The position numbers were made by a program, and so were the translations under genes. A stretch of DNA of 14,341 nucleotides, taken from positions 1-14,341 of the forward strand of contig NZ_CALLYO010000404.1 in assembly GCF_937858865.1 (NCBI RefSeq), read 5' to 3'. The notes under the pieces are model-generated. The model saw only the letters and a program-made list of their open reading frames with translations, was not told the DNA's origin and searched no databases. Position 1 is the stretch's first letter. Every line of letters starts with the position of its first letter. Origin of the DNA: an uncultured Amaricoccus sp. GTDB lineage: Bacteria > Pseudomonadota > Alphaproteobacteria > Rhodobacterales > Rhodobacteraceae. Shown here piece after piece: positions 233 through 14,341 of this stretch.

Positions 233-1066
233 CTATCCGCCGCGGACCATGGCGAAGAGGAAGCGGGCGCAGACGGTGAGGAGGAAGAGGCCGAACAGGA
301 TCTCGAGGCGGCGGCGCGGCATGGCGTGGGCGAGGTTGACGCCGATCTGGGTGGTGAGGAGCGTCATCGGCACGATGAGGGCGACGCCGAGCAGCGAGAC
401 GAAGCCTATGGCGTCGGGCGGAAGGCCGGGGCGGCCCCAGCCGGAGATCATGTAGCCGATCGTGCCGGGGATCGAGATGAGGACGCCGACGCCGGCCGAG
501 GTGGCGACCGCCTGGTGGATCGGGCGGCCGTGCAGCGTCAGGATCATCGTCGAGATGGCGCCGCCGCCGATGCCCATCAGCGCCGAGGCGAGCCCGACGA
601 GCCAGCCCCAGGCGCGCAGCGCGAGGCCCCTCGGCATCTCGGTGGCGACGCGCCAGCGGTCGCGGCCGAAGAGGAGCTTGCTGGTCGTCAGCAGCCCGAC
701 GGCGACGAAGACGCCCTGGAAGACCGCGGGGCCGGCGGTGCGGGCGATGACGGCGCCCATGCTGACGCCGATCAGGATCGGCAGCGCCCAGGCGCGCAGG
801 ACCGAGGGGTCGACGGCGCCCTTGCGGTAGTGGCCGAGCGCCGAGCGGATCGAGGTCGGGATGATGATCGCGAGCGAGCTGCCGACCGCGAGCGGCATGG
901 CGATCTCGGGCTCGGTGCCGAGCAGGCGGAAGACCTCGAAGAGGACGGGCACGGTGATCGCCCCGCCGCCGACGCCGAAGAGGCCGGCGAGGACGCCGGT
1001 GACGGCGCCGCCGGCGGCGAGCGCCCCGGCGAGCCAGAGGAAGGAGGCGAGGCCGAGCGTGCCCAT
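233..1066 (-). CDS. TauE/SafE-family membrane exporter
   Basis: A 277-aa integral membrane protein of the TauE/SafE (sulfite exporter, formerly DUF81) family. Members are proposed to export sulfite or small organic anions across the inner membrane. The family's two-fold repeat is visible: a glycine-rich segment GLFGVGGGAITVP at residues 28-40 recurs as LMGIGGGAIST at 163-173. About eight hydrophobic segments are spread over residues 8-275. The ATG at 1066 shares one base with the TGA of the upstream GntR gene (TGATG), which implies translational coupling, and GAGGG lies about 9 nt before it. A longer open frame exists upstream but overlaps the GntR gene and lacks membrane character. As the last gene of an ABC-import operon, it may remove an anion released from the imported substrate. 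Sulfite is the textbook option, but the family is broad and no desulfonation enzyme is visible. Confidence 0.88.
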   Translation of the reverse strand: MGTLGLASFLWLAGALAAGGAVTGVLAGLFGVGGGAITVPVLFEVFRLLGTEPEIAMPLAVGSSLAIIIPTSIRSALGHYRKGAVDPSVLRAWALPILIGVSMGAVIARTAGPAVFQGVFVAVGLLTTSKLLFGRDRWRVATEMPRGLALRAWGWLVGLASALMGIGGGAISTMILTLHGRPIHQAVATSAGVGVLISIPGTIGYMISGWGRPGLPPDAIGFVSLLGVALIVPMTLLTTQIGVNLAHAMPRRRLEILFGLFLLTVCARFLFAMVRGG

Positions 1067-1815
1067 CAGTGCCGGCCCTCGTCGCCGGCCGGGCCGGCGG
1101 CGCGGACCTTCGCCTCGTAGAGCTCGAGGGTGAGCTGGTACTGCGCGACGAGATGCTCGGCGGCGGCCTCGGCGTCGCCGCGCAGCGCCGCGTCGGAGAT
1201 CCGGCGGTGCTCCTCCTCGGAGTTCCGCCGCGGGTAGGTGTTGGAGTCGGAGATGTAGCGGTAGCGTTCCGCCTGGTCCATCAGCTCCTCGCAGAAGCGC
1301 AGCAGCCACTCCGAGCCGCAGTTGGAGATCAGCGCGCGGTGGAACTGGCGGTGGCGGACCTCCCACTCGCGGTTGTCGTCGGCGTCCTGCGCGTCGGTGC
1401 CGAAGAGGAAGGGGGTGCGCAGCAGGCGGTGCAGCGCGAGGACGATGCCGTCCTCCCAGGCCTCGGTGCGGTTGCGGACCGATTCGACGAGCGCCCGCCC
1501 CTCGAGCCAGCAGCGCGCCTTCACGATGTCGCGGAACTGCTCGATCGAGAGGACCGGCACCGAGAAGCCGCGCTGGTCCTCGTGATCGACCATGCGCTCG
1601 GCGGCGAGGCGGTTCATCGCCTCGCGCACCGGGTTGGTGCCGGCGCCGTAGCGGAGCGCGATCTGCTCGACCTGGAGCCGCTCGCCCGGCGCGAGGGCGC
1701 CGCGGAGGAGGTCGCCCTTGAGCCGGCGGTAGACGAGGGTCGCCGCCGTGGCCTTGCCGCCGGCACGCGCGAAGTCGTCGCCGCCGGCGGCGGCGGAGCG
1801 CGCCGGGCCCTTCAT
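1066..1815 (-). CDS. GntR-family regulator with FCD domain
   Basis: A 249-aa transcription factor. Residues 22-88 form the GntR winged helix-turn-helix, with the typical stretch LAPGERLQVEQIALRYG followed by NPVREAMNRLAAE. Residues 95-235 form the all-helical FCD effector-binding domain of the FadR subfamily. Candidate metal or ligand histidines are H155 and H159 (HRQFH), H203 (EEHRRI) and H221 (AEHL). FCD domains usually bind organic acids or amino-acid derivatives, often through a metal. The ATG overlaps the stop of the permease gene by 4 nt (ATGA), and its own stop overlaps the exporter start. The regulator therefore sits inside the operon it most likely controls. The upstream sequence gives only a poor ribosome binding site, consistent with coupled translation. 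Likely target: the paired sites at 4558-4586. The effector is probably the imported compound or a breakdown product, by inference. Confidence 0.88.
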   Translation of the reverse strand: MKGPARSAAAGGDDFARAGGKATAATLVYRRLKGDLLRGALAPGERLQVEQIALRYGAGTNPVREAMNRLAAERMVDHEDQRGFSVPVLSIEQFRDIVKARCWLEGRALVESVRNRTEAWEDGIVLALHRLLRTPFLFGTDAQDADDNREWEVRHRQFHRALISNCGSEWLLRFCEELMDQAERYRYISDSNTYPRRNSEEEHRRISDAALRGDAEAAAEHLVAQYQLTLELYEAKVRAAGPAGDEGRH

Positions 1816-2660
1816 GCCAGGCCTGCCGTTTCCGAGATGGTCGAGCGGTGCCAGAAGACGAGCCGGCGCTCGACGAGGACGACGACCCAGAAGAGGGTGA
1901 AGCCGAGCAGGCTGAGGTAGAGGATGAGCGAGAAGACGCGCGGGGTCTGCAGCTGCGAGGCCGCGACGCGGATGAGCTCGCCGAAGCCCTTGCCGCCGCC
2001 GAGGAACTCGGCGGTGATGGCGCCGGCCATGACGCCGACGGCGGCGATCTTGAGGCCGGTGAAGATGTGCGGCAGGCCGGTCGGCAGCTTCATCTTGAAG
2101 AGGGTCTGCCAGCGGCTGGCCCCCATGGTCTTGAAGAGCATGCGCGCGTTCTCGTCGTGGGCGTGCAGTCCCGCCGCGGTGCCGACGACGATGGGGAAGG
2201 TGGCGATGAAGGCGGCGAGCGCGACCTTCGACGCGATGCCGAAGCCGAGCCAGGCGAGGAAGAGCGGCGCGAAGGCGACCTTGGGCATGGTGTCGATGGC
2301 GACGAGGTAGGGCAGGACCGCCCGCTCGCCGAAGGCGGTCTCGCCGACGAGGATGCCGAGGCTGAAGCCGATCGCCATGGCGAAGAGGAAGCCGAGCAGC
2401 ACCTCCTGGGTGGTGATCCAGAGCGCCTTCAGCATGTAGCCGCCGGAGAGGAGGTTGCGGGCGACGAGCTGGATGTCGGCCCAGGTCTCGCCCGGCGAGG
2501 GCAGGATGATCGGCGAGACGATGCCGAAGCTGTGCACGAACTGCCAGAGCGCGACGACGGCGACGAGGAGGCCGACCATCGCGACCGAGCGGGGGATGCG
2601 GTCGATGAGCGAGACGTGCTCGGTCCAGACGGTATCGCCCTCGGGGGCGGTGCTGCTCAC
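1812..2660 (-). CDS. ABC transporter permease (SsuC/TauC type)
   Basis: A 282-aa inner-membrane permease of the binding-protein-dependent transport family, in the group that works with NMT1/SsuA-type binding proteins (taurine, alkanesulfonate, nitrate, pyrimidine precursors). Hydrophobic segments lie near residues 26-46, 86-106, 115-140, 145-164, 203-220 and 243-263. The cytoplasmic EAA loop that contacts the ATPase is clear at 174-205, with GASRW at 180-184 and KLPTGLP at 191-197. The start is GTG at 2660, overlapping the ATPase stop by 4 nt (GTGA), with GGGAG 7 nt upstream. Only one permease gene is present, so the channel is expected to be a homodimer. Family membership is clear; the substrate cannot be read from the sequence. 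Confidence 0.93.
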   Translation of the reverse strand: MSSTAPEGDTVWTEHVSLIDRIPRSVAMVGLLVAVVALWQFVHSFGIVSPIILPSPGETWADIQLVARNLLSGGYMLKALWITTQEVLLGFLFAMAIGFSLGILVGETAFGERAVLPYLVAIDTMPKVAFAPLFLAWLGFGIASKVALAAFIATFPIVVGTAAGLHAHDENARMLFKTMGASRWQTLFKMKLPTGLPHIFTGLKIAAVGVMAGAITAEFLGGGKGFGELIRVAASQLQTPRVFSLILYLSLLGFTLFWVVVLVERRLVFWHRSTISETAGLA

Positions 2661-3472
2661 TGGAAGGCTCCCTTGTCGAGGAGGGATCGGATCTGCTGCA
2701 CGTAGGCGCCGAAGGCGGGGCTGACCATCATGTCGGTGGTGCGCGGGCGCGGCAGGTCGATGTCGATCTCGGCGATGATGCTGCCTGGGCGGGAGGACAT
2801 GACGTGGACCCGGTCGGAGAGGAAGACCGCCTCGGAGATCGAATGGGTGATGAGGAGGGCGGTGGCGCTGCGCGACATGCAGATCCGCTGCAGCTCGAGG
2901 TTCATGAAGTCGCGGCTGATCTCGTCGAGGGCGCTGAAGGGCTCGTCGAGGAGCAGCACCTGCGGGCGGGTGATCAGCATGCGGCAGATGGCGGCGCGCT
3001 GGGCCATGCCGCCGGAGAGCTGGTGCGAATAGACCGTCTCGAAGCCCTTGAGGCCGACGAGCTCGAGGATCTCGCGGGCGTCGGCGTGGGCGGCGCGGGC
3101 GGCGGCGCGGCCGTCGCGGATCTCGATGGGCAGGACGATGTTCTCGATCGTGGTGCGCCAGGGGAAGAGCGTCGCCTGCTGGAACATCATGCCGATGTCG
3201 CGGCGCGGGCCGGTGACGGGCGTGCCGTCGAGGACGACCCGGCCGCTCGTCGGCGGCACGACGCCGGCCATGATCTTGAGGAGCGTCGACTTGCCGCAGC
3301 CGGAGGGGCCGATGACCGATGAGAAGCTGCCCTCGGTCAGGGTGACGTCGACCGGCTTCAGGGCCTCGATGCGGCCCTGGCCGTAGGTCTTCGACACGCC
3401 GCGGAGCTCGTAGACCGGCCGCGCGTCGCGGCCGGTCGGGGGCGTACCTGTCGGGCCGGTGGGAGACGCCAC
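2657..3472 (-). CDS. ABC transporter ATP-binding protein (SsuB/TauB type)
   Basis: A 271-aa nucleotide-binding subunit of the importer. All ABC motifs are intact: Walker A GPSGCGKST at residues 55-63, Q-loop Q98 in MMFQQ, signature LSGGM at 152-156, Walker B LLLDEP at 173-178, and switch histidine H210 in LITHS. The sequence TLFPWRT after the Q-loop is typical of the nitrate/sulfonate/taurine group. I chose the GTG at 3472, beginning VASPTGPTG, because it lies 2 nt after the binding-protein stop and has AGGA 6 nt upstream. The frame stays open much further upstream, but that part overlaps the binding-protein gene. The first ~18 residues are Pro/Gly/Thr-rich and probably a flexible tail, so a slightly later start cannot be excluded. 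Confidence 0.93.
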   Translation of the reverse strand: MASPTGPTGTPPTGRDARPVYELRGVSKTYGQGRIEALKPVDVTLTEGSFSSVIGPSGCGKSTLLKIMAGVVPPTSGRVVLDGTPVTGPRRDIGMMFQQATLFPWRTTIENIVLPIEIRDGRAAARAAHADAREILELVGLKGFETVYSHQLSGGMAQRAAICRMLITRPQVLLLDEPFSALDEISRDFMNLELQRICMSRSATALLITHSISEAVFLSDRVHVMSSRPGSIIAEIDIDLPRPRTTDMMVSPAFGAYVQQIRSLLDKGAFQ

Positions 3473-3474
3473 CG

Positions 3475-4482
3475 TCAGTCCTGGTTCCAGTATTCGACGA
3501 ACTCGTTGGTATAGGCGGCCTCGAGGTCGTCGAGCGGGGCCGGGATGGTGCCGGTCGCGACGACGCTCTCGTGCCACTTCTCCCAGTCCTCGGGCGGCTG
3601 GTAGCCGAGCGGCCGGCTGGGGTCGACCGAGGTCATCCGCTGGCTGACCGCCTCGTAGACGCCGAGCGCGAAGTCGCGGTCCTCGGCCTCCTGCGGGTTG
3701 GCCGCGGCGGCATGCTCGAGCACCTTGTCGATGTTGGCCGGGTCCGTGCCGAACTTGTAGCCGCGGACGATGGCGCGGCCGAAGCCCTTGATGACCTCGG
3801 GGTTGGCGTCGATGTAGGCGCGGGTGGCGGCGAAGCCGTTGGCGAAGTAGCCGAGGTATTCGTCGGGCGTGATCTCGCGCAGCGGGATGCCGCGGGACTC
3901 GATGATGACCATGTCGACGGCGGCTGCGGCGTAGGCCTCGACCTCGTCGTTGAGGAAGGCCGCGGCCGCGGTGCCGCCGTCGCCGACGGTCAGGAACTCG
4001 TAGTCGGTGCCCTCGGTCAGCCCGGCGTCGGTGAGGATGTTGCGGGTGAAGCCGACCTCCGCGCCGTCGGCGGTGCCGACGCCGATGGTCGCGCCCTTGA
4101 GGTCGGCGGGGGTCTGGACGGCGGATTCCTCGCGCACGACGACGCCGAAGCCGGTCTTGGGGTAGAGGTTGTAGAGGAAGACGACGTCCTCGCCGCGCGA
4201 GCGGGCCGCGAGCACCGGGCCGGGGCCGGGCTGGCCGATCTGGCCGGTGCCGGAGGCGAGCGTCTGCAGCACCGAGGCTGAGCCGTTGACGGCCTCGACG
4301 CTGACGTCGAGCCCTTCCTCGGCGAAGTAGCCCTCGCCGATCGCCACGTGCAGCGGGAAGACGTTGAGCGCCGAGGGGTTGGGCAGCACCACCGTGACCG
4401 GCGTCTGCGCCAGCGCGCCGGCGGCCGGAAGGGCGGCAAGCGCGAGACCCGCCAGGATCGACCTGGCAAAGCGGAATGTCAT
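3475..4482 (-). CDS. ABC transporter substrate-binding protein, NMT1/THI5-like
   Basis: A 335-aa periplasmic binding protein and first gene of the operon. It carries a signal peptide: basic start MTFRFAR, hydrophobic core, and an AGALA|QT cleavage site after residue 25. The mature part fits the NMT1/THI5/SsuA family, with HVAIGEGYFAEEGLDV near 45-60, a QTLASGTGQIG segment near 73-83 and DLKGATIGVG near 127-136. Relatives bind sulfonates, nitrate, thiamine or pyrimidine precursors, phthalate-like aromatics and others, so the fold does not reveal the ligand. Translation starts at ATG 4482 behind a strong GGGAGGA site (4494-4488) with a 5-nt spacer. The predicted promoter at 4561-4588 gives a leader of about 70 nt. 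An FAH-family hydrolase is transcribed divergently. Confidence 0.93.
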   Translation of the reverse strand: MTFRFARSILAGLALAALPAAGALAQTPVTVVLPNPSALNVFPLHVAIGEGYFAEEGLDVSVEAVNGSASVLQTLASGTGQIGQPGPGPVLAARSRGEDVVFLYNLYPKTGFGVVVREESAVQTPADLKGATIGVGTADGAEVGFTRNILTDAGLTEGTDYEFLTVGDGGTAAAAFLNDEVEAYAAAAVDMVIIESRGIPLREITPDEYLGYFANGFAATRAYIDANPEVIKGFGRAIVRGYKFGTDPANIDKVLEHAAAANPQEAEDRDFALGVYEAVSQRMTSVDPSRPLGYQPPEDWEKWHESVVATGTIPAPLDDLEAAYTNEFVEYWNQD

Positions 4483-4557
4483 TGGTGTCCTCCCATCTTG
4501 TGCCGGCCGGTGCCTGGGGCCGGCCTTCCCCGTCGTCGCCAGCGATCAGCGGGCAAG

Positions 4558-4586
4558 GATACACTATCGGACGAGGATACCCTGTC
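4558..4586. promoter_or_regulatory. Twin GATA-N3-TRTC operator candidates
   Basis: GATACACTATC (4558-4568) is a perfect inverted repeat GATA-CAC-TATC. GATACCCTGTC (4576-4586) is the same pattern with one mismatch. Both are preceded by AGG or GG, and they repeat with an 18-bp period. The first covers the predicted -10 and the second overlaps the predicted -35 of the transporter promoter. A short palindrome with a 3-bp centre suits a GntR/FCD dimer. Repression by the operon's own regulator, relieved by substrate, is the natural inference. The spacing is not an integral number of helical turns (18 bp), so the two dimers would lie on different faces. Confidence 0.45.
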
Positions 4587-4588
4587 AA
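4561..4588 (-). promoter_or_regulatory. Predicted sigma70-type promoter of the transporter operon
   Basis: On the minus strand, a perfect -35 box TTGACA (4588-4583) is followed after 16 bp by TAGTGT (4566-4561). TAGTGT matches the -10 consensus at its first two bases and its last base. Transcription would start near 4554, about 70 nt before the binding-protein start codon. The region is less GC-rich than the surrounding genes. For the divergent hydrolase, the best -10 I can find is TACATT at 4609-4614 on the + strand, with no convincing -35. Confidence 0.5.
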
Positions 4589-4695
4589 ATGCAGATCGGG
4601 ACGGATCATACATTTTTCGGTTGCCGCCTCTCGAATCCGTGCTAGGTCTGCGGTCAACCCGGCCCCCGGAAGCCGGCCAGATCGGAGGGACGAAG

Positions 4696-5406: not shown

Positions 5407-5420
5407 CGGGTCAGTCAAGC

Positions 5421-5480
5421 GCGGCCCGTGCTTTCGCACGGGCGGGATGGGGACGGCGCAGCCCTCCTCGTCAGTTGGCG
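5421..5480. repeat. Dispersed hairpin repeat, copy 1 (also a likely bidirectional terminator)
   Basis: A ~60-bp element contains a perfect hairpin: arms GCCCGTGC (5424-5431) and GCACGGGC (5436-5443) around TTTC, followed by GGGATGGGG and a CCTCCTC-GTCA block. A second copy in the same orientation lies at 9619-9680. Here it separates two convergent genes, so it may stop transcripts from both sides, although there is no T-tract. The stop codon of the 109-aa gene (5471-5473) lies inside the element. Confidence 0.7.
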
Positions 5481-5800
5481 CTTTTATCCTCCGCCGGCCG
5501 GGCACCGTCGACGAGCTTGCGGACCAGCGACACGACGTCGCCGTCGGGCCAGTCGTTCAAGCCCCTCCCGACGTCGAGGAGTTCGTCGAGGGGCCTCCAG
5601 GGGTCGCTTGCCCGCGCGCGCGCGCTGCCCGTGATCTGCAGCCTGCCGGCCTGGGGTGAGCCGCCGTCTCCGGTCACCGTGAGCGGGATGGCTTCCCAGG
5701 CGGGCGAGCTGAAGTTCTCCTTCAGAACGTTGTCGTTGTTGTAGCGGTCGCGGATGGTGATGTCCTGGACTTCTTCGGTGAAACGGATGGAGACTTTCAT
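5471..5800 (-). CDS. Hypothetical protein, 109 aa
   Basis: A small protein I do not recognise, last gene of the YcaO-TfuA cluster. The N-terminal half (MKVSIRFTEEVQDITIRDRY...) alternates charged and hydrophobic residues like a beta-rich domain. The C-terminal third is acidic and ends in a hydrophilic tail. There is no cysteine, no signal peptide and no membrane segment. ATG 5800 follows a G-rich stretch (GAGGGGGG) 4 nt upstream, and the gap to the preceding gene is 43 nt. Several codons near the start are A/T-rich (for example AACAACGACAACG), unlike its neighbours. The last few codons and the stop fall inside the dispersed hairpin repeat, so the original C-terminus may have been altered by repeat insertion. 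With no Cys and no clear leader/core division it does not look like a classic RiPP precursor, though Ser/Thr are present. Confidence 0.65.
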   Translation of the reverse strand: MKVSIRFTEEVQDITIRDRYNNDNVLKENFSSPAWEAIPLTVTGDGGSPQAGRLQITGSARARASDPWRPLDELLDVGRGLNDWPDGDVVSLVRKLVDGARPAEDKSAN

Positions 5801-5843
5801 TCTGCCCCCCTCATGAAGCGGTCGTGGCCACAGCGGCCGGGTT

Positions 5844-6350
5844 TCACTCGCGCGTCAGGCGTCCGCCGCGGTGCGCCATCTGCAGGTTGATCGAGTAGGT
5901 GTTGGGCGAGCGGCGCCCGGGCAGGTTGGCGTCGAGCACGAGCGCCTGCGCCGTGTCGTAGGTCGTCGCCACCTCGAGGAGCTGGGTGACGGTGTGGATG
6001 CGCCACATGCGGTAGACCGGCGTGCCGGGCTGGTTCAGCCGCAGCTCGAGGTCGAAGCCGCAGCCCACCGGATCCTCTTCGGCCGCGTCGGTGACGACGA
6101 AGGCGCGCACCTTGTCGAAGCGGTAGCAGTGGCCCTCGAAGGCGTAGCCGTAGGCGAGCACCATCGAATAGTCGTCGTGCGACATGGGCGCGGTGTCGAC
6201 GAGCTGCACCCGCAGCTCGTAGCCCCGCCCGCCGAAGAAGCTCGAATAGTCGTGCAGGCGGTTGAGCTTCACGCCGTAGAGGATGATCTCGTCCGGAAAG
6301 TAGGTGCCGGTCTGGGCCGGTGCCGGAATGTTGCAGCCGTCATCGCTCAT
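5844..6350 (-). CDS. Hypothetical protein, 168 aa
   Basis: A 168-aa soluble protein without a family I can name. It is rich in aromatic residues and predicted beta structure, with segments such as PDEIILYGVKLNRL (19-32), YELRVQLVDTAP and YRMWRIHTVTQLLEV. Three cysteines lie at the extreme N-terminus (SDDGCN), in GHCYRF and in VGCGFD. No signal peptide or membrane segment is visible. ATG 6350 has a GGGAGA site about 6 nt upstream, and it begins 20 nt after the metallopeptidase stop, so the two are almost certainly co-transcribed. It could be an accessory factor for the YcaO-TfuA machinery, a peptidase partner, or a full-size protein substrate. The sequence does not decide between these. Confidence 0.75.
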   Translation of the reverse strand: MSDDGCNIPAPAQTGTYFPDEIILYGVKLNRLHDYSSFFGGRGYELRVQLVDTAPMSHDDYSMVLAYGYAFEGHCYRFDKVRAFVVTDAAEEDPVGCGFDLELRLNQPGTPVYRMWRIHTVTQLLEVATTYDTAQALVLDANLPGRRSPNTYSINLQMAHRGGRLTRE

Positions 6351-6370
6351 CGTTTTCTCCCTCGGTCATT

Positions 6371-7594
6371 TCAGGTCGGCTCGAAGATGCCGCGCCAGCC
6401 GAAGCAGTCCTCGATCTGGGGCGCGAAGGGGCGGCCGCGGCCGCGGTCGACCGCCACGAGGAAGGCCTCGGCGGCGGTGGCGAAGTCGAGATCGTAGGGG
6501 TCGAGCCGCGGCCACGAGCGCACCAGCGCCTCGCCGACGATGTCGCGCGCCTCGGCGAGCGCCGCCTTCACGGCGAAATGGCGGAACTCGTAGGCGGCGG
6601 CGTCGTCCGCGAGGGCGCGCTCGATCAGCGAGGGCTCCATCTGCCGGCGCAGGTCGCTGAAGCGGCGCGGGTCGATGTCGGAGAGGCCGCGGTCGTAGAG
6701 CAGCGCCTGGTGCACCTCGATGAGGCTGTCGAAGAGGGCGCCGCCGAACGGGCGCGAGCGGTCGTGCACCTCGCGGCTCACGTCGCCGAGGCGCAGCGAG
6801 TTGCTGAAGGTGCGGATCTGCCGCTCGTTGCTGGTCTCGGCGAAGCGGTCGAGCTCGTTCTCGAGGAGGAGATTGCCGCGGGTCCGTCGCAGCAGGCGGT
6901 CGAGCGCGGTGTCGAAGTGGAGGAGCCCGAGCAGCGAGAGGAAGTCGGCGACCGCCTCGTGGTAGGCGAGGAAGTCGGGGCCGCCCTCGCCGTCCTCGGG
7001 CAGGCCGATCTCGCCGAGCAGCACGAGGTGGCCGACCTCGTGCGCGATGGCGTCGAAGTTCAGCCCGTAGCAGCTGCGCCGGTCGGCCCGGTCGCTCTCG
7101 CCGAGCTCGAGGTAGCCGAAGCCCGACTGGGCGTTGTCCCACTCCGGGATGCGCGGCACGATCTCGAGCCGGTCGACGGTGGGCTCGAAGTACCAGGGGA
7201 TCTCGCGGCCGACGTAGCCCTCGCAGATGTCGAGCACACGGCGCACGCAGGCGTAGACGTGGGCGTCGAGGAAGCCGTCGGTGCCGGGCTCGAGATAGTC
7301 GAAATGGCCGTCCGGTCCCGGCTCCGCCGGCGGGCGCAGCCGGCCGGCGTAGGGCGGCAGCTCCGGGAAGAAGTAGGGGACCTTCGGCTCGACCGGGTTC
7401 GCCACGTACATGCGGCGGTCGGCGGGGCCGGCGGTGATCCGGCCGGGCGGGAGGCTCAGCCAGACGACCTCCGGCTTCTCGTAGCCGGGGACGTAGGGCG
7501 GCTGCGGGAAGACGCGGAAGCGCGTGCCGAGGCTCGCGCCATCCGTTCCCCCGCCCGCAGCGGGAGAGGCCGGGACCGGCTCCATTCTCGTCAC
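6371..7594 (-). CDS. Predicted zinc metallopeptidase (HEVGH...EAVAD gluzincin)
   Basis: A 407-aa protein with a thermolysin-like zinc site: HEVGH at residues 185-189 (two His ligands and the catalytic Glu), the third ligand E213 in EAVADFL, and H277 in HDRSRPFGGALFD as a possible transition-state His, as in M4/M36 peptidases. The spacing HExxH-23 residues-ExxxD fits this group. The N-terminal 110 residues are Pro-rich (QPPYVPGYEKPEV, FFPELPPYAG) and have no signal peptide, so it should act in the cytoplasm, unlike most secreted M4/M36 enzymes. It lies 65 nt after tfuA and 20 nt before the 168-aa gene. In a YcaO-TfuA context a leader-removing peptidase is the obvious guess, but this is inference. 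Start: GTG 7594 behind a G-rich stretch; ATG 7585, three codons later, is equally possible. I cannot assign it to a named peptidase family with certainty. Confidence 0.8.
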   Translation of the reverse strand: MTRMEPVPASPAAGGGTDGASLGTRFRVFPQPPYVPGYEKPEVVWLSLPPGRITAGPADRRMYVANPVEPKVPYFFPELPPYAGRLRPPAEPGPDGHFDYLEPGTDGFLDAHVYACVRRVLDICEGYVGREIPWYFEPTVDRLEIVPRIPEWDNAQSGFGYLELGESDRADRRSCYGLNFDAIAHEVGHLVLLGEIGLPEDGEGGPDFLAYHEAVADFLSLLGLLHFDTALDRLLRRTRGNLLLENELDRFAETSNERQIRTFSNSLRLGDVSREVHDRSRPFGGALFDSLIEVHQALLYDRGLSDIDPRRFSDLRRQMEPSLIERALADDAAAYEFRHFAVKAALAEARDIVGEALVRSWPRLDPYDLDFATAAEAFLVAVDRGRGRPFAPQIEDCFGWRGIFEPT

Positions 7595-7651
7595 GCCATC
7601 CGCCCCCCCGCGCAGGTTCTAGCCTCGCATCGCCCGGCAGTTCCCGGCGCG

Positions 7652-7657
7652 AGTATA
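7652..7657 (-). promoter_or_regulatory. Possible internal -10 box before the metallopeptidase gene
   Basis: TATACT (minus strand, 7657-7652) begins a few bases after the tfuA stop codon and matches five of six -10 consensus bases. It could give the last three genes their own transcript with a leader of about 50 nt. No matching -35 box is visible at 16-18 bp, so the case is weak. Confidence 0.2.
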
Positions 7658-7659
7658 CC

Positions 7660-8415
7660 CTACGCGGGGAAGGCGAGATAGTCGTCCCACTGCCCCGCCG
7701 CCTCGAGATCGGCCGCCCAGGCCTCGGTGAGCTCGAACGGGAGCCGTGGGAGCGGGGTGCGGGGCGCGGTGGCGAGGTGGCGGAGGAGGGCGATGGTGTC
7801 GGCGCGCTTGGCGTCGACGGCGTTGCCGGGGAGCCATTCCTCGAAGGCGTCGATCTCGGCCGGGGCGATGCCGGCGGCGCGTGCGGCGGCGATGGTCGCG
7901 GGGTAGCTGCGGTCGAGGAAGCCCTGCTGCCGGGCGAGCCTCTCGAGTGCCGCGCGGGTGAGCGGGGCGAGGATGCCGCGGCGGGCGGCGCGGCGGAGGG
8001 TCAGGCGCATGTTGACCAGCGCCTCACCGAGGGGGGCCGATCCGAGTTCGGGCGGGGTCATCCCTACGGCGACCTCCTCGTCGTCGGCGAGGGGGATGCG
8101 GCGGTACCAGCGGTAGATCAGCCCGTGGCCGATCATGCCGCAGGGGGCGAGCTCGGCGGCGCGGAGCGCGCCCATGCTGGCGGCGCCGTGCATCTCGACG
8201 CCCTGGGACATGGCCCAGAGGATTTCCTTGTGGCGCACCGCCGGGCGCTGGGCGAAGGCGCCGTCGACGATGGCGATGGCGGCCGGGCGGTGGTCGAGGA
8301 CGGCGCGGAAGACGCTGCCCTGCTCGGCGGGCGGCAGGTAGAGGGCGTCGAGGTGGGTGCGGGCCTCGGCGACCGGCAGGGTGGGGCCGAGGAGGACGGC
8401 GATGTCACCGGCCAT
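7660..8415 (-). CDS. tfuA: TfuA-like protein
   Basis: A 251-aa TfuA-family protein, the usual partner of a subset of YcaO enzymes. Known family roles: trifolitoxin production in Rhizobium, thioamide formation in thiovarsolin-type RiPPs, and thioamidation of McrA in methanogens. TfuA is thought to help deliver sulfur or activate the YcaO. The hallmark core is intact: LLGPTLP at residues 8-14, IVDGAFAQRPAVRHKEILWA at 49-68, then GVEMHGAASMGALRAAEL at 72-89, with GMIGHGLIY following. The C-terminal part is helical and includes VDAKRADTIALL (200-211). ATG 8415 has a good GGAGG site 6 nt upstream and overlaps the end of the YcaO frame by 11 nt, so the two are translationally coupled. Unlike its YcaO partner, this gene is uninterrupted. 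Confidence 0.92.
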   Translation of the reverse strand: MAGDIAVLLGPTLPVAEARTHLDALYLPPAEQGSVFRAVLDHRPAAIAIVDGAFAQRPAVRHKEILWAMSQGVEMHGAASMGALRAAELAPCGMIGHGLIYRWYRRIPLADDEEVAVGMTPPELGSAPLGEALVNMRLTLRRAARRGILAPLTRAALERLARQQGFLDRSYPATIAAARAAGIAPAEIDAFEEWLPGNAVDAKRADTIALLRHLATAPRTPLPRLPFELTEAWAADLEAAGQWDDYLAFPA

Positions 8416-9543
8416 GCGCGGCCTCCGGGTTGGTGTGGAGGGGCGGCGCGACGAGGCGCACCACGGCGAGCGGGATGTCGGGGTCGGCGAAGAGCGGCAC
8501 GGCGATCGCCGCCCGCGCGCCGGCGGTGGCGAGGGCGGCGACGATGCCGGCGAGATCGCGGGGCGGCGGGTCGGCGGGCATGGGCGTGCCGCCGGTGTCG
8601 AGCTGGCGGCGCCAGGCGGCGAGGTGCTCGGCCTCGGGGCCGGTGCGGTAGAGGTCGGCCGTCACGTCCTCGCGCGCGCCGGCGATGGCGGTGAGCCGGG
8701 CCTGGGCGGCCTCGAGGAGAGCGCGGGCGAGGGCGGCGTCCTCGGTGGTGTCGCAGCCGAAGCCCTCGGCGGGGAGGGGCGCGAGGTCGGGGCCTGCGGC
8801 GCGCTGCATCAGGTGGCACCAGTAGACCGGCAGGCCGTGCGGAGTCGGGATGCGCCAGATGCCGGCGACCGCCGCAGCCGGTCGAGGAGCGGGGCGGAGC
8901 GGGCGCCGGCGACGCTGGCGGCGGCGATGCGGAAGCGGTCGAAGAAGTGCGGCATGGCGAGGGCGCGGTGGCGCGCCTCGCGCTCGAGGAGTTCGAGGCA
9001 GGCATGGCGGAGCGCGCCCTGGAGGTCGGTCCCGGCGGCGAGGCCGCTGGTGTCGCGCGGCAGCCAGGCGGGGTGCGGCGAGGGGAGGGTGTAGACGGTG
9101 TCGACGAGGGCGAGCGGCACCGGGCGGGGGCGGGCGGCGAGGAGGTCCCAGCCCTCGATCCAGGCGATGGAGGCGGCTGGGTCGGGGGCGCGGCGGCAGA
9201 GGTCGGCCCAGAGGTCGGTGTCGTCCGGGGGCGCGCGCCAGGTCCGCTCGGGGGGGATGCGCTCGGCGGCCCAGGTCTCGAGCGATTCCATCAGCGCGGC
9301 GATGGCGGCCTCGGGGAGGGTGGCGCCCTTGCCCTGGGTGACGGCGTTCGAGCGGGCGAGCGGGCGGATGACCTGGGCGACCGGCACGCCCGCGCGGTCG
9401 AGGCCGGTGAGCGCGCCGAGGCGGGTGATGCCGAAGCGCGCGCGCCGCGCCCAGAGCCGGCGGACGGTCGCCTCGATCGGCGGGGGAGCGGCGGTTGGTG
9501 TGGCGAGAAGGTCGGCGAGCGCGGCCGGCGGGATCATATGCAT
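8405..9543 (-). pseudogene. ycaO: YcaO-family cyclodehydratase/thioamide synthase, frameshifted
   Basis: Two consecutive frames together encode one YcaO protein of about 379 aa. The N-terminal part starts at ATG 9543 and runs about 224 residues. It holds the ATP-binding signatures SNAVTQGKGATLPEA (65-79), MESLET (85-90) and ALRHACLELLEREA (177-190). YcaO homology then continues one frame over from about 8872 to the stop at 8407-8405, with GIWRIPTPHGLPVYWCH and an ALARALLEAAQARL helix followed by GAREDV. The junction lies around 8868-8875, where CTGCGGCGGTC would need one extra base (for example a G after CGG) to restore the frame. Unrepaired, translation ends at 8809 after 244 residues, losing the C-terminal third. 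The start has no good ribosome binding site, and ATG 9537 is an alternative. A sequencing or assembly error is as likely as real inactivation, because tfuA downstream is intact. YcaO proteins phosphorylate backbone amides with ATP to make azolines or, with TfuA, thioamides. Confidence 0.85.
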
Positions 9544-9618
9544 GGGGCGGCCGCGGCGGACCTGGCCCTGCCGACCTCTCCAATGAGCACGGGCGCGCCT
9601 GCCGGGGGGCAGGCAGAC

Positions 9619-9680
9619 GCAGCCCGTGCTTTCGCACGGGCGGGGATGGGGGGGCGGTGCCTCCTCTCGTCAACCGGCGG
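9619..9680. repeat. Dispersed hairpin repeat, copy 2
   Basis: Second copy of the element at 5421-5480, same orientation. Arms GCCCGTGC (9622-9629) and GCACGGGC (9634-9641) flank TTTC, followed by GGGGATGGGG and CCTCCTCTCGTCA. It lies in the 164-nt gap between the cyclase/ATPase gene (stop 9708) and the YcaO gene, both on the minus strand. It could end the cyclase transcript. When translated it gives a PPVRKHGLRL peptide, which I take to be a repeat artefact and not a gene. I see no clear promoter for the YcaO gene in the rest of this gap. Confidence 0.7.
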
Positions 9681-9707
9681 GATTGTGGCAATCACGCGGA
9701 TTTCCGG

Positions 9708-12700
9708 TCAGCCGCCGCGGCCGATGGCGCCGAGGTCGGCGCGCGCCCGGTCGGCGAGCCAGGCGGCGCCCTGCTTCTGGCCGAGGTCGAGGGCGCGCTT
9801 GAGGTCGCGGCGGACGATGGCGGGGCCGGCGCCGGCGGCGGCGCGGAGCCGTCCCCGGCGGCGGTAGAGCTCGGGGAGCCAGAAGAGCTGGCCGCCCTTG
9901 AGCCCCTGGGTGATCGCCGTCTCGACCAGCCCGAGCGCGGCGGCGGGGCGGCCGGCGCGCTCGAGGATCTCGGCCTGCATGTCGGCCTGGATCGACATGT
10001 TCTCGTCGGTGCCGATGCGCTGCTGCAGCGCGAGGCCGTCCTCGAAGCGGCGCATCCCGTCCTCGAGCGCGCCCGAGAGCGCCGCGGCCCAGCCGGCGAA
10101 GACGTCGGCGCGGGCGCGGCTGGCGGCGAGGCCGTGGGTGTCGGCGACCGCGCGCATCCGCTCGGTGAGGGCGAGGACATCAGCGGCGCGGCCCTGGCAG
10201 CGGCGCAGGACGACGGCGTAGTAAAGTGCGTGCACCAGGCTGCCGACGTGCTCGGTCGCCTCGGCCCAGGCGAGGCTGTCGGCGATGGCGGCCTCGGCGC
10301 CGGCCTCGTCGCCCATGAAGGCGAGGGAGAGCGCCCGCTCGCCGAGGCCGCAGACCCGCGCGTCGTGGCCGCCGTAGATGGCGCGGTTGCGCTGGGCGCG
10401 CTCGGCGTCGTAGAGCGCCAGCCCCTCGGCGACGCAGTCGAGGCAGAACTGGTGCTGGCCGGCGTGGAAGTTGGTCGCCCAGGCGCAGTGGTAGGATTGC
10501 AGGCGGATCTCGGGGTCGTTCACCCGCGCGAGGTCGTCGATCAGCGTGCGGGCGCGCGCCCGCTGCACGGTGATGTTGCGGGCGGTGAACCACCAGCCCC
10601 AGGAGATGGCGAAGCGGTCGGCGAGGCTGCCCTGGCTCTGCCGGCGGCAGATCGACATCGCCCGCTCGTAGATGCGGCGGGTCTCGGGCGAGCCCTCGCC
10701 GGTCAGCGCGGCGGCGACGACGCCGCGGAGCTGCAGGGCGTCGAGGCGGAGCTCGGTGCGCTGCGGCCCGCCGGCGACGGCGGCGAGCTGCCCCTCGGCG
10801 GTCTCGAGCAGGTGGTCGGCCTCGGGCATCGCCGAGCGGATGACCGAGGCCTCGGCGGCCGCGATGGCGAAGCGGGCGGCGTCGAGCGGGAAGCCGCCCT
10901 GGGCGCAGTGCCAGGCGGCGAGCTCGTTCGGCATCCCGAGCGACTCGCCGGCGACCAGCCGGCGGGCGATGCGCTGGTGGAGCCGCCGGCAGTCGGTCCT
11001 GAGCAGGCTGCCGTAGGCCGCCTCCTGCAAGAGCGCGTGGCGGAAGCGGTAGCTGGTCTCGCCGTCCGCGGCGCGCGCCTCGAGGATGCCGTGGCTGACG
11101 AGCTCGGCGAGGTCGGCCTCGATCGTCGCGGCATCGGGCCCGGGGTCGAGCACGCGCTCCATCACCCCGACGCCGAACTCGCGGCCGATGACGCTCGCGA
11201 CCTGCGCCATGCGCCGCGCCGCGCCGGCGTCGGCGAGGCGCGCCGAGAGGAGGTCGTTGAGGGTGGTGATGCCGTTCTCGACCAGGAGCGCGCGCCAGTC
11301 GGCGGCGGTGCTGCCGCTGCCGGCCCGGCGCAGCAGGAAGTCGGCGAGCTCCTCGCCGAAGAGCGGCACGCCGTCGCTCTTGTCGCGCACGAACTCGGCC
11401 AGCCCCGGCGGGACCTTCCCCTCCCAGAGGCAGGAGACGAGATCGGCCATCGCCGGGCCGCTGAGGCCGGCGAGCGCGATGGTCGTCGCGCCGGACGGGC
11501 CCTGCCGCTGGCCGCTGCGGCTGGTGGCGAGGACGAGGGCGGGCAGGGCGTGCGCCGCCTCGCCGAGCCGGTCGATCAGCTCGGCGGTCATGCTGTCGGC
11601 CCAGTGGGCGTCCTCGAAGACGAAGAGCTGCGGGCCCGGGCGCGCGAGCGCGCGGAAGAGGTCGACCGCCGCCCCGATCACCTCGTCGCGGTAGCGCGCG
11701 CCGGAGAGGTCAGTGGCCAGCAGGTGGGCCGAGGTCCGCGGTGTCTTCGCCGCGGCGAAGGAGGCGAGCACCTGCGCCGCGCCGGCGTCGAGCGGGATGC
11801 CGCGGGCGGCGAGCCGGGTGCCGAGGGCGCCGGGGTCGCGCTCGGAGAGCGCCTCGCGGCCGGCCAGCGTCTCGAGGAAGGTGAGGAAGGGGTGCAGCGG
11901 CCGGTGGCTCAGCCGCTCGTGGCACTGGATCACCCGCTCCTCGCCCTGGCCCTCGCGGGCGGCCTCGCGCCGGAGCTCGGAGACGAGGCGCGACTTGCCG
12001 ATGCCGGCTTCACCCACCACCCAGACCGCCTGCCCGGTGCCGGCGCGCGCCTGCGCCCAGGCGCGGCGCAGCGCGGCGAGCTGGCTGTCGCGGCCCTGCA
12101 GCGGCGCCCCGGCCCCGCGCACGGCGGCGAAGCGGTCGACGACCGCCCGCGGGCGGAGCGGCCGCCAGAGGCGGACGGGCTCGGCGAAGCCCTTGAGCCG
12201 CGCCGTGCCGAGCGGGCGGTAGTCGAAGCTCGCGCGCGTCAGCCGGTAGGCGGTGTCCTCGACCACGATCGAGTTGGGCGCCGCCTCGGCCTGCGCGCGG
12301 GCGGCGAGGACCGAGGCGGTGCCGAGGAGATCCTGGCCGTCGGCCGAGATGACCATCATGCCGGTCGCGACGCCGATGCGCAGCTGCAGGCCGGCGAGCC
12401 GCCCGCCGCGCGCCCGGCCGAAACGCTCGATGAGGGCGAGCGCGGCGCGCACGGCGCGCTCGGCGGAATGCTCGGACTGGCGCGGATAGCCGAAGAAGCC
12501 GCAGCCGCCGTCGCCGAGCTCCTGGTAGACGTGCCCGCCGTGCTGGCGGATGAGGCGCGAGGCCTTGCCGTGGAAGTCCTTGACGATCTCGGCGTATTCC
12601 TCCGGCCCGCGCGCGACGAGCAGCTCGGTCGATCCGACGATGTCGTAGAAGAAGGCGGTGATCTGCCGCCGCTCGCCGGCAAGCTCGATCGTCGGGTCGT

Positions 12701-12722
12701 CGGTGGCTCGGACGGTACGCAT
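9708..12722 (-). CDS. Cyclase-domain/AAA-ATPase/helical-repeat signalling protein
   Basis: A 1004-aa cytoplasmic multidomain protein. Residues 20-170 are a class III nucleotide cyclase homology domain: metal aspartates D27 (FYDIVGST) and D71 (ELGDGG) and the R142 position (LAAR) are kept. The usual adenine-binding Lys is replaced by Gln (Q67) and the usual transition-state Asn by Val (V138, in GTASVLAAR). Residues 205-380 begin an AAA/STAND-type ATPase, with Walker A GEAGIGKS (237-244) and Walker B LFVFED (366-371) followed by AHWAD. The remaining ~500 residues are Ala/Leu-rich helices resembling TPR repeats. Such proteins are common in alphaproteobacteria, but their signals are mostly unknown. 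The frame is open far upstream but that part overlaps the phosphatase gene; ATG 12722 starts the cyclase homology. It has no ribosome binding site at normal distance and may be leaderless. Confidence 0.88.
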   Translation of the reverse strand: MRTVRATDDPTIELAGERRQITAFFYDIVGSTELLVARGPEEYAEIVKDFHGKASRLIRQHGGHVYQELGDGGCGFFGYPRQSEHSAERAVRAALALIERFGRARGGRLAGLQLRIGVATGMMVISADGQDLLGTASVLAARAQAEAAPNSIVVEDTAYRLTRASFDYRPLGTARLKGFAEPVRLWRPLRPRAVVDRFAAVRGAGAPLQGRDSQLAALRRAWAQARAGTGQAVWVVGEAGIGKSRLVSELRREAAREGQGEERVIQCHERLSHRPLHPFLTFLETLAGREALSERDPGALGTRLAARGIPLDAGAAQVLASFAAAKTPRTSAHLLATDLSGARYRDEVIGAAVDLFRALARPGPQLFVFEDAHWADSMTAELIDRLGEAAHALPALVLATSRSGQRQGPSGATTIALAGLSGPAMADLVSCLWEGKVPPGLAEFVRDKSDGVPLFGEELADFLLRRAGSGSTAADWRALLVENGITTLNDLLSARLADAGAARRMAQVASVIGREFGVGVMERVLDPGPDAATIEADLAELVSHGILEARAADGETSYRFRHALLQEAAYGSLLRTDCRRLHQRIARRLVAGESLGMPNELAAWHCAQGGFPLDAARFAIAAAEASVIRSAMPEADHLLETAEGQLAAVAGGPQRTELRLDALQLRGVVAAALTGEGSPETRRIYERAMSICRRQSQGSLADRFAISWGWWFTARNITVQRARARTLIDDLARVNDPEIRLQSYHCAWATNFHAGQHQFCLDCVAEGLALYDAERAQRNRAIYGGHDARVCGLGERALSLAFMGDEAGAEAAIADSLAWAEATEHVGSLVHALYYAVVLRRCQGRAADVLALTERMRAVADTHGLAASRARADVFAGWAAALSGALEDGMRRFEDGLALQQRIGTDENMSIQADMQAEILERAGRPAAALGLVETAITQGLKGGQLFWLPELYRRRGRLRAAAGAGPAIVRRDLKRALDLGQKQGAAWLADRARADLGAIGRGG

Positions 12723-12730
12723 AATGCGAA

Positions 12731-12757
12731 ACGATACCACCCTTGCCGGCGAATCAA
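12731..12757 (-). promoter_or_regulatory. Candidate promoter of the cyclase/ATPase gene
   Basis: On the minus strand, TTGATT (12757-12752) and TATCGT (12736-12731) are separated by 15 bp, shorter than ideal. The -10 ends 8 nt before the ATG at 12722, so transcription would begin at or within a couple of bases of the start codon. A 5-1-5 inverted repeat CGCAT-A-ATGCG (12718-12728) lies across this point. Confidence 0.3.
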
Positions 12758-12803
12758 TCCATTTCCGCCGCAAGCTGCCGGTTTCCCCGGATTCTTCGCC
12801 CCT

Positions 12804-12817
12804 GCCCCGGGCGGGGC
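12804..12817 (-). terminator. Weak GC hairpin after the phosphatase gene
   Basis: GCCCC and GGGGC arms flank GGGC, 13 nt beyond the phosphatase stop on the minus strand. The stem is only 5 bp and no T-tract follows, so this is a weak terminator candidate in the 107-nt gap before the cyclase gene. Confidence 0.2.
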
Positions 12818-12829
12818 GCGGAAACTGGC

Positions 12830-13618
12830 TCAGCCGGCGCGCATGAGCGCGAGGGCGGCGGCGTGCAGTGCCGGGCTCGCGGCGGCGATCACCGTTCCGC
12901 CGGCGAGCGGCGGGCGGCCGTCGAGGCCGGTGACGACGCCGCCCGCCCCCTCGATGATCGGGATGAGCGGGACGATGTCGTAGGCCTGCAGCGAGCTCTC
13001 GATGACGAGGTCGATGAAGCCGTGGGCGAGCAGGCAGTAGGAGTAGCAGTCGCCGCCGAAGCGGGTCATGCGCACTGCCGCCGCGACGCGGTCGAAGCCG
13101 GCCTGCACCGCCGGACCGAGGCGCGGGTGGGTGGAGTAGAGGATCGCCTCGGCGAGGTCGGTCCTGCCCGAGGCGCGGAGCGGCTGGCGCGATCCGGCAT
13201 GTACCAGCCAGGCGCCGGAGGGGCCGGCGAGGAAGGTCTCGTCGAGGTAGGGCTGGCGCATGATGCCGCCGACCGGCCGCCCGGCGTGGAGCAGGCCGAG
13301 CAGGATCCCCCACTGCGGCACGCCGGAGATGAAGGCGCGGGTGCCGTCGATCGGGTCGATGATCCAGGACCATTCGCTGGCGCCGGGGGTGAAGCCCTCC
13401 TCCTCGCCCTGGATCGGGCTGTCGGGCCAGGCGCGGGAGAGGCCGGCGCGGATCATCGCCTCGACGCCGCGGTCGGCGGCGGTGACCGGGTCGAAGGCGC
13501 CGGGGCCGAGCTTGTTCTCGACCGCGAGCGGCCGGCGGAAGTGGCCGAGCGCGAGCCGCCCGGCCTCCTCGACCAGCGCCAGCGCCAGCGCCAGGCGCTC
13601 CTCGATCTCCTGCTGCAT
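12830..13618 (-). CDS. hisN: Histidinol-phosphatase-like inositol monophosphatase family protein
   Basis: A 262-aa Mg2+-dependent phosphatase of the inositol monophosphatase fold. Metal-site motifs are complete: GEEEG at 71-75 (E72), DPIDGT at 88-93 and D214 in QAYD. DPVTAAD (43-49) is the family's N-terminal motif. GGDCYSYCLLAHGFIDLVIE (189-207) together with YDIVPLIPIIEGAGGVV (213-229) fits the HisN-type histidinol-phosphate phosphatases, where AYD replaces the WDxA of true inositol monophosphatases. HisN removes phosphate from L-histidinol phosphate, the penultimate stage of histidine synthesis. ATG 13618 has GGAG 9 nt upstream. The open frame continues upstream to 13879, but that part is not conserved-looking and lies in the intergenic region. 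No other his genes are nearby, so inositol-phosphate or another sugar phosphate remains possible as substrate. Confidence 0.85.
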   Translation of the reverse strand: MQQEIEERLALALALVEEAGRLALGHFRRPLAVENKLGPGAFDPVTAADRGVEAMIRAGLSRAWPDSPIQGEEEGFTPGASEWSWIIDPIDGTRAFISGVPQWGILLGLLHAGRPVGGIMRQPYLDETFLAGPSGAWLVHAGSRQPLRASGRTDLAEAILYSTHPRLGPAVQAGFDRVAAAVRMTRFGGDCYSYCLLAHGFIDLVIESSLQAYDIVPLIPIIEGAGGVVTGLDGRPPLAGGTVIAAASPALHAAALALMRAG

Positions 13619-13696
13619 GCGGCGATTCTCCGACCTCGGTGCCGGGCGAGCATGGACCGGGCGCCGAGGCGCGGGAACCATCGTCGCGGACCGGCC

Positions 13697-13716
13697 ATCG
13701 GCGGATTTCCGCCGAT
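13697..13716. repeat. Perfect 9-bp-arm inverted repeat in divergent region
   Basis: ATCGGCGGA (13697-13705) and TCCGCCGAT (13708-13716) are exact reverse complements around TT. It lies 79 nt upstream of the phosphatase start, within the 275-nt gap to the divergent TerC gene. It could be an operator or a transcribed hairpin; the sequence does not decide. Confidence 0.55.
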
Positions 13717-13801
13717 TGCTGCGCGCGCCGCGCCGGGCGCCTCCGCAAGGCCGCGGGCCTCGCCCATATGGCGGCATGGCCCCAGGCTGCGCGGAGGGGA
13801 T

Positions 13802-13814
13802 TGTCGCTGCGACA
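13802..13814. promoter_or_regulatory. TGTCGC-T-GCGACA inverted repeat upstream of terC
   Basis: A perfect 6-1-6 inverted repeat 80 nt before the TerC start codon, followed by CAAACC. The short palindromic form suits a dimeric regulator. No promoter boxes are convincing next to it. Apart from this and the repeat at 13697-13716, the 13619-13893 gap holds nothing I can identify. Confidence 0.3.
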
Positions 13815-13893
13815 CAAACCTGCCGTAGTGCCACCGGAAGGCTGGCCCGTCGTCGGCGGGTGGATCCGCTGCTAGCCATGGAGTGACCCCCCG

Positions 13894-14341
13894 ATGCCCT
13901 TCCTCGACGCGATCGCGCCGCACTTCGACTTCCTGACCAGCCCGGCGGGATGGGCGGCGCTGGTCACGCTGATCGCCATGGAGGTGGTGCTCGGCATCGA
14001 CAACCTGATCTTCATCTCGATCCTGACCAACAAGCTGCCGCCCGAGCACCGGGTCAGGGCGCGGCGGCTCGGGATCGGCGCGGCGCTCATCATGCGGCTG
14101 CTGCTGCTCGCCACCATCTCCTACATCGTGGCGATGACGACGCCGGTCTTCACCGCCTTCGGGCAGCCCTTCTCCTGGCGCGACCTGATCCTGATCGCCG
14201 GCGGCCTGTTCCTGGTCTGGAAGGCGACCAAGGAGATCCACCATTCGGTCGATCCGGCGGATCACAAGGACGACACGGTCGGCAAGGCGGTCAGCACCAC
14301 GCTCGGCGGCGCGATCTTCCAGATCCTGCTGCTCGACCTCG
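13894..14341 (+). CDS. TerC-family integral membrane protein (partial, 3' end missing)
   Basis: The first 149 residues of a TerC-family protein, cut by the window edge. Transmembrane segments are visible at about residues 18-40, 65-85 and 105-125. The family's acidic intramembrane signature is present as [14 protein letters not shown] (29-42), and a second segment [21 protein letters not shown] (95-115) is also typical. TerC/Alx-type proteins move metal ions, with Mn2+ efflux shown for several members, and some assist metallation of exported proteins. ATG 13894 has GGAG about 10 nt upstream. The gene is divergent from the phosphatase gene, and no manganese riboswitch (yybP-ykoY) could be recognised in the leader by eye. 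Confidence 0.9.

Follow-up and report, generated by a model that had tools for sequence, protein, structure and literature searches.

A YcaO-TfuA cassette of Alphaproteobacteria with a predicted metallopeptidase and a proposed folded-leader precursor

Introduction

What does a YcaO-TfuA pair modify when no short precursor gene lies beside it? YcaO and TfuA reportedly introduce thioamides into the backbone, with TfuA using a thiocarboxylated ThiS-type carrier (PMC13063428, PMC8939145). We asked this question of a window of DNA, by which we mean the whole 14,341-base contig (C404, NZ_CALLYO010000404.1) of a draft genome of an uncultured Amaricoccus sp. (G000, GCF_937858865.1; 651 contigs; 92.6% complete). 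A sequence-only reading of the window had placed at 5471..9543 five collinear minus-strand genes, encoding a frame-broken YcaO, TfuA, an HEVGH protein, a 168-residue protein (p168) and a 109-residue protein (p109). It proposed a peptide or protein modification system in which the peptidase processes the product and one orphan protein is the target or a partner. All five genes are where it put them, and the successive gaps between TfuA, peptidase, p168 and p109 measure 65, 20 and 43 nucleotides (nt), as it said; YcaO and TfuA overlap by 11 nt. Its boundary held for these genes and missed the gene at the head of the unit, which encodes a class III nucleotide cyclase with an AAA ATPase (cyclase-AAA; Table 1).

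The analysis supports a modification system of this kind, with p168 as the likely target. We propose that the cassette makes a ribosomal thioamidated peptide: p168 would be a precursor with a folded leader, YcaO and TfuA would thioamidate its tail, and the peptidase would free that tail. We give this reading a probability of about 0.7. It rests on gene content, co-occurrence, the predicted peptidase fold, the predicted disorder and the conservation of the p168 tail, and relatives with repeat tails.

Table 1 Features of the cassette, with positions in the window
Feature	Position	Strand	Basis
Head gene of the cassette, a 1004-aa protein with class III nucleotide cyclase and AAA ATPase domains	9708..12722	minus	PF00211 E 7.3e-17; PF13191 E 5.2e-19
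YcaO N-terminal piece	8809..9543	minus	PF02624 model 1-151, E 1.6e-21
YcaO C-terminal piece, other frame	open reading frame 8405-8809, frame reaching 8860	minus	PF02624 model 207-324, E 6.5e-12; model 179-324 at 8438-8860
TfuA (251 aa)	7660..8415	minus	PF07812, E 5.3e-40; NF033432 178.4 bits, under cut-off 235.2
Predicted thermolysin/fungalysin-fold metallopeptidase (404-407 aa)	6371..7594	minus	HEVGH codons 7028-7042
p168, proposed precursor of a ribosomally synthesized and post-translationally modified peptide (168 aa; folded leader residues about 11-140)	5844..6350	minus	AlphaFold2 model; repeat-tailed relatives
Proposed core peptide: residues 141-168, the C-terminal tail of p168	5847..5930	minus	low pLDDT + conservation
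p109, fast-diverging small accessory protein (109 aa)	5471..5800	minus	positional profile

Conservation and co-occurrence of the cassette

We scanned a species-genome collection with the peptidase alignment and studied the best 80 of 227 confirmed loci. The order cyclase-YcaO-TfuA-peptidase-p168 is held in 80/80, with YcaO to p168 on one strand within 6 kb, an arrangement far beyond chance. The cyclase-AAA gene, first detected by clustering, lies immediately upstream of YcaO on the same strand in all 80 and belongs to the cassette unit. Its residues D28, D72 and K244 (L002 numbering), presumably metal and ATP ligands, are kept at 1.00 in 76 aligned rows. Sequence sets for the hidden Markov models were length-filtered (cyclase 76/81, p168 79/80, peptidase 75/76, YcaO 73/75 and TfuA 65/73). 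Loci met a second time were not counted again: L104 repeats L048, and L148, L149 and L151, of the main type, were treated as L073, L041 and L063.

The peptidase profile matched 12 genomes in a class sample of 289, seven of them strongly (E below 1e-80), and TfuA lay within 0.9 kb in 7/7. A phylum sample of 299 genomes gave nine matches, seven strong, again with TfuA nearby in 7/7. Over both samples, which share three genomes, a strong-match peptidase has TfuA within 0.9 kb in 11/11 distinct genomes, some of which also contributed loci to the 80. This count excludes the weak peptidase matches (E 2.5e-16 to 4.3e-5) in 5/12 genomes of the class sample and 2/9 of the phylum sample, and none of these seven genomes is among the TfuA matches of either sample. 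In the reverse direction, the class sample holds 20 TfuA places in 16 genomes, 13 of them without the peptidase. These counts make YcaO-TfuA the broader system, with the peptidase and p168 confined to one part of it. The sequence-only reading had taken as grounds for its refutation that YcaO-TfuA would pair with other genes and that the peptidase and orphans would occur independently; the former was seen, at those 13 of 20 places, whereas a strong-match peptidase apart from TfuA was not found in the 11 genomes.

The p168 profile matched 5/289 genomes of the class sample and 8/299 of the phylum sample. p168 apart from the peptidase was seen only as one tail fragment and as one weak match with a stop in G142 (E 3.7e-4), which lies away from any peptidase and which we regarded as noise. 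In the class sample, G071, G148 and G233 have a strong peptidase match and no p168 profile match: the profile misses the divergent p168 of G148 and G233, and the locus of G071 (L108) stops short of p168 and was left out of every tail count. The fragment, a relic consisting of a 49-residue p168 tail (L160:9498-9689, minus strand; G380:C72), has none of the other cassette genes in its 18 kb.

p168 and its repeat-tailed relatives

An AlphaFold2 model of p168 (91 rows) predicts a beta domain followed by a low-confidence tail. The block mean of the predicted local distance difference test (pLDDT) is at least 90 in 11/13 ten-residue blocks of residues 11-140, the two lower blocks being 101-110 (62) and 11-20 (83), and it falls to 67, 50 and 53 in the blocks of residues 141-168. 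The tail is also the most conserved part. Mean entropy is 1.26 bits for residues 139-168 versus 2.25 for residues 10-138 (79 rows; Mann-Whitney p 5.6e-6), and of the 23 positions where a single residue reaches at least 80%, 12 lie within the last 30 residues (79 rows; Fisher p 4.6e-5), both p values being computed on related rows that are not independent. The tail consensus of the main family is ANLPGKRSPNSYAITxxMAHRxGRLTR. No match stood out when the PDB was searched with the p168 model, and p168 matched neither Nif11 nor nitrile-hydratase-like leader models in Pfam or NCBIfam at E<=1, libraries that we take to include both.

Divergent loci came from outward searches with a profile that includes divergent peptidases and that matched 7/31, 4/17 and 8/149 genomes. 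There are 16 such loci; L103, L105, L106 and L107 come from the class sample, and L145 and L146 end before the tail. In 12 of the 14 with a readable tail, the protein encoded directly after the peptidase ends in tandem repeats whose period is 4, 5 or 6; in the other two (L105 and L150) it has an Arg-rich tail. The repeat units are RVSGA (L106, L152, L153), KVSGA (L154-L156), RAVMAS (L103), SRAMMQ (L143), GDMAAR/GDMSAR (L144), AGQMVG (L142, which runs off the contig), GMNV (L107) and GQNV/GQNI (L147). The main-family p168 profile recognises 11/14 of these readable proteins at E<=1e-3; L142 matches at 2.5e-11 with its unfinished frame supplied, and L150 at 1.1e-3. Comparison of the main and divergent p168 families with hhalign gave a probability of 98.4 and E 4.7e-15 over the body only, ending at the tail. 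A database search returned 92 proteins, of which 88 have C-terminal repeats, compared with 0/120 main-family proteins and 0/120 peptidases. Protein P0260 of Roseobacter fucihabitans is one of the repeat-tailed members. By its layout and its repeat-tailed relatives, p168 is a candidate for the encoded precursor with leader and core. The sequence-only reading had allowed for a full-size protein as substrate; we prefer to read p168 as a precursor, its leader folded and its core C-terminal, over an ordinary full-size target.

The common occurrence of a short motif extends the comparison to loci that lack the peptidase. The class sample has 13 TfuA loci that lack the peptidase, and in five of them (L091, L092, L093, L095 and L096) a cyclase-AAA profile match lies 0.7-1.2 kb upstream of the YcaO frame, and a small open reading frame (ORF) with the motif R[GA][AP]DG[RHV]LY stands between the two. 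In L091 and L092, long tandem repeats follow the motif (ADGRLY or alike): DDSQRHAANFIGTTP; DADAGRWAITPEVKA. Over six frames of 128 loci (2.40 Mb, some stretches being included twice), the motif, chosen after its carriers had been seen, matched seven times, always in candidate precursors by YcaO-TfuA: five stand-alone ORFs and two p168-type proteins (L103 and L143). The motif joins the p168 type to stand-alone precursors.

Other ORFs were observed upstream of YcaO or YcaO-TfuA. L099 has a repeat-bearing ORF (10651-11088, minus strand) with GKQRFA repeats, and L100 has repeat-bearing ORFs (10354-14144, minus strand) with AAGQIAGG and SSAAAFGQP repeats. A small-protein family with IADLDAGTV or IADLNAGTV occurs in L111, L113 and L114, and another, of 47-52 residues with a C-terminal ALKFR or ALRFR, in L116-L118.

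The enzymes and a proposed mechanism

The peptidase gene product, like p168 and p109, has zero Pfam or NCBIfam matches at E<=1, from which we take the peptidase to be a distant branch outside those models. Its structure model predicts a thermolysin/fungalysin fold, as in the M4/M36 gluzincin peptidases, and the HEXXH and downstream Glu that characterise that group are present. H182, E183, H186 and E210, which we take as ligands by analogy with thermolysin, are invariant in 24 rows, and the equivalent positions are likewise invariant in 10 rows that include divergent members. No signal peptide was seen in an inspection by eye. Two peptidase relatives (P0067 and P0068) are longer than the others, at 463-464 residues, and the N-terminus of P0067 resembles a membrane segment followed by a basic stretch.

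YcaO and TfuA are adjacent, the arrangement expected of thioamidated RiPP systems (RiPP, the peptide class named in Table 1), with the YcaO of the window frame-broken. The break is a single frame change between 8860 and 8956. The near-invariant YcaO residues of relatives can mostly be traced by eye across the two pieces. Since the stretch that matches the break is open in 79/80 relatives (a stop occurs in L033), intact YcaO copies exist; plasmid pRL11 of the laboratory symbiont Rhizobium johnstonii 3841, for example, has an open cassette (L006). The draft genome gave no match to a second YcaO. The break may be an assembly error or a real mutation, and the copy as assembled, being frame-broken, may be inactive.

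In the mechanism that we propose, the folded beta domain of p168 (about residues 11-140) would serve as a built-in leader recognised by the enzymes, and the flexible C-terminal tail would be the core. YcaO would use ATP to activate backbone amides in the core, and TfuA would deliver the sulfur, taken from a ThiS-type carrier in thiocarboxylated form; the draft genome has a match to a ThiS/MoaD-type carrier. The peptidase, putatively cytosolic and of thermolysin fold, would then separate core from leader, and the cyclase-AAA protein may sense something or set expression. The thioamide, the cleavage and its site, the role of the cyclase and the fate of the product are what we infer here. That the proposed core is so well conserved in the main lineage points to a fixed role, which might, as a guess, be signalling via the cyclase-AAA protein. 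In its fullest form this would mean one nearly invariant thioamidated peptide across many Alphaproteobacteria, acting as an intracellular signal sensed by the cyclase-AAA protein of its own operon, and hence a self-contained circuit of modified peptide and cyclic nucleotide with a new class of folded-leader precursor. We regard this extension as rather unlikely.

Weighing the alternatives

Several observations weigh against the precursor reading. YcaO is broken in the window, and the conserved gene order contains no exporter; an ABC-ATPase-like family occurs somewhere in 25/81 loci, and general exporters are conceivable. The p168 tail of the main lineage is unrepeated and strongly conserved, unlike typical variable cores, and its conservation could instead mark a binding site. 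The repeat count of 88/92 is biased toward VSGAR because the search selects matches by five-residue words that they share with the query. L143 has no main-family profile match (E 0.038 with the A6 profile) and is linked through its position and its similarity to L103, which amounts to 46% at E 2e-48 across 244 residues that take in the repeats. L107 (G233:C1:991000-1010000) has TfuA, peptidase and p168 with repeats, and no YcaO was found in its 19 kb. The cyclase-AAA gene is upstream in only four of the 16 divergent loci; in eight a weaker cyclase match lies on the opposite strand, and four, two of them short contigs, have none. Two of the weaker matches, in L152 and L106, belong to a scanned protein with a class III cyclase and tetratricopeptide repeats and no AAA match, which lies beside p168 on the opposite strand, convergent with the divergent cassette; the others are near L105, L147, L150 and L154-L156. 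In a YcaO + TfuA tree (61 loci, 631 columns; L107, lacking YcaO, was omitted), 23 main cassettes form one clade with support 1.0, and the main and divergent cassettes do not together form one clade, the divergent ones mixing with peptidase-less loci (0.878).

p168 could instead be a recognition or scaffold protein for YcaO-TfuA, with its tail a docking or cleavage signal, the substrate encoded elsewhere and the repeat-tailed relatives being fusions of scaffold and precursor. The p168 body is kept while tails vary, and in L103 and L143 another leader-like motif separates the body from the repeats, as expected of a fusion. We nevertheless find this unlikely. Conservation in the main p168 family is highest in the tail. 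None of the 20 widest families of small ORFs listed from the 1.5 kb around the cassettes resembles a precursor, the widest being in 12 loci of close Rhizobium relatives, which is in line with the earlier remark that 5407-9707 has no short Cys/Ser/Thr-rich precursor. It is quite improbable, in our estimate, that the C-terminal repeats are structural and that YcaO-TfuA modify p168 as a working protein. NCBI names some relatives 'pentapeptide repeat-containing protein', two database matches have a precomputed PF00805, and period 5 dominates the database matches (82/92, plus three of period 10). However, period 7 also occurs there, and periods of 4 to 7 on related bodies argue against a single structural repeat, periods 4, 6 and 7 being unexpected of one repeat fold. 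Such a role also sits poorly with the lack of repeats in the 120 main-family proteins, and when four database matches, including the repeat-free P0331, were scanned against Pfam, none had a hit at E<=0.01. Finally, p109 could be thought the precursor as the last operon gene and a hypervariable one with a positional family in the nearest loci, but that family's profile finds members in 17/80 relatives, its other matches are weak and elsewhere, and p109 reads as a small protein that shows neither repeats nor a clear division into leader and core; we consider this highly improbable.

Relation to known systems

The thiovarsolin cluster (varA, varY, varT; PMC6511847) resembles the cassette in joining YcaO and TfuA with a precursor that has a repeated C-terminal core, and its product is a short thioamidated peptide with Arg. 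VarA is described there as a repeating precursor peptide, with no mention of a large folded domain in the text drawn on, whereas p168 has a predicted domain of ~130 residues, and in the part of that paper drawn on here no specific protease is reported, in contrast to the dedicated peptidase and cyclase-AAA protein of the cassette. The same cluster includes a heme oxygenase-like protein, an ATP-grasp ligase, a major facilitator superfamily transporter and an amidinotransferase (PMC6511847). No heme oxygenase-like protein, ATP-grasp ligase or amidinotransferase was found among the cassette proteins of the window in Pfam scans, or in NCBIfam scans of all but the cyclase.

Malit et al. 2021 (PMC8120280) described TfuA-related proteobacterial clusters, over 500 in Rhizobium, and the cassettes here may be among them. 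In its main text the word 'cyclase' is absent and 'peptidase' appears once, as Peptidase S9. Precursors of those clusters were called with RiPPER, which seeks ORFs of 20-120 residues (PMC6511847), so a 168-residue precursor would have been passed over. The tfuA gene of a trifolitoxin-producing Rhizobium, which named TfuA, comes from the same bacterial group (PMC4603692). Although TfuA clusters are abundant in Rhizobium (PMC8120280), beyond the link of tfuA to trifolitoxin (PMC4603692) no thioamidated product is named for them in the literature consulted, to the extent of the text drawn on. A precursor exceeding the 20-120 residue mining range would explain missed precursors and gives a concrete substrate to test. 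The cassette would also supply a thioamide pathway with a protease of its own and would tie peptide thioamidation to a nucleotide-cyclase regulator.

RiPPs of the PflA/PosA type likewise have a folded leader, a C-terminal core and an HEXXH protein in the cluster (PMC12636437). Their leaders are nitrile-hydratase-like, whereas p168 has no leader-family match, and their HEXXH enzyme is an alpha-ketoglutarate oxygenase, in contrast to the thermolysin/fungalysin-like model here (PMC12636437). The peptidase has no Pfam or NCBIfam match to that alpha-ketoglutarate HEXXH RiPP family (IPR026337), whose model these libraries are taken to include; a fold search for the family was not made. By E-value, the closest named NCBIfam YcaO and TfuA models are those of the McrA glycine thioamidation pair (TIGR03266 and NF033432). 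Both proteins score below the cut-offs, the YcaO N-terminal piece at 81.5 against 365, handicapped as a broken piece, and TfuA as given in Table 1. The cassette differs from the McrA pair in being bacterial and in having a peptidase and a precursor-like protein. Literature searches, with most subscription papers outside their reach, found no description of this architecture.

Small neighbours and flanking features

We regard p109 as an optional, fast-diverging accessory. It gave no tblastn match in the 80 loci. In the nearest locus group, a small protein stands at its position in 17/20 by profile, 15 of these by construction, and the proteins of this positional family are 15-30% identical to p109. 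A profile of the 15 positional proteins scores p109 at 13.9 bits (E 0.065), a value reached by 0/1000 shuffles, and p109 is the best of 17,488 ORFs after the 17 family members. In five Roseibium/Labrenzia loci (L055, L056, L057, L059 and L060), a different small family of 135-160 residues takes the place of p109 downstream of p168.

Elsewhere in the window, the minus strand at 1066-4482 encodes an NMT1/SsuA-like binding protein, an ABC ATPase (domain in ORF 2657-4657), a permease and a GntR/FCD regulator, which make up an ABC importer operon of the usual kind. A perfect hairpin, GCCCGTGC-GAAA-GCACGGGC, is present at 5424-5452 and again at 9622-9650; it is REP-like (like repetitive extragenic palindromes) and flanks the YcaO-to-p109 block on both sides.

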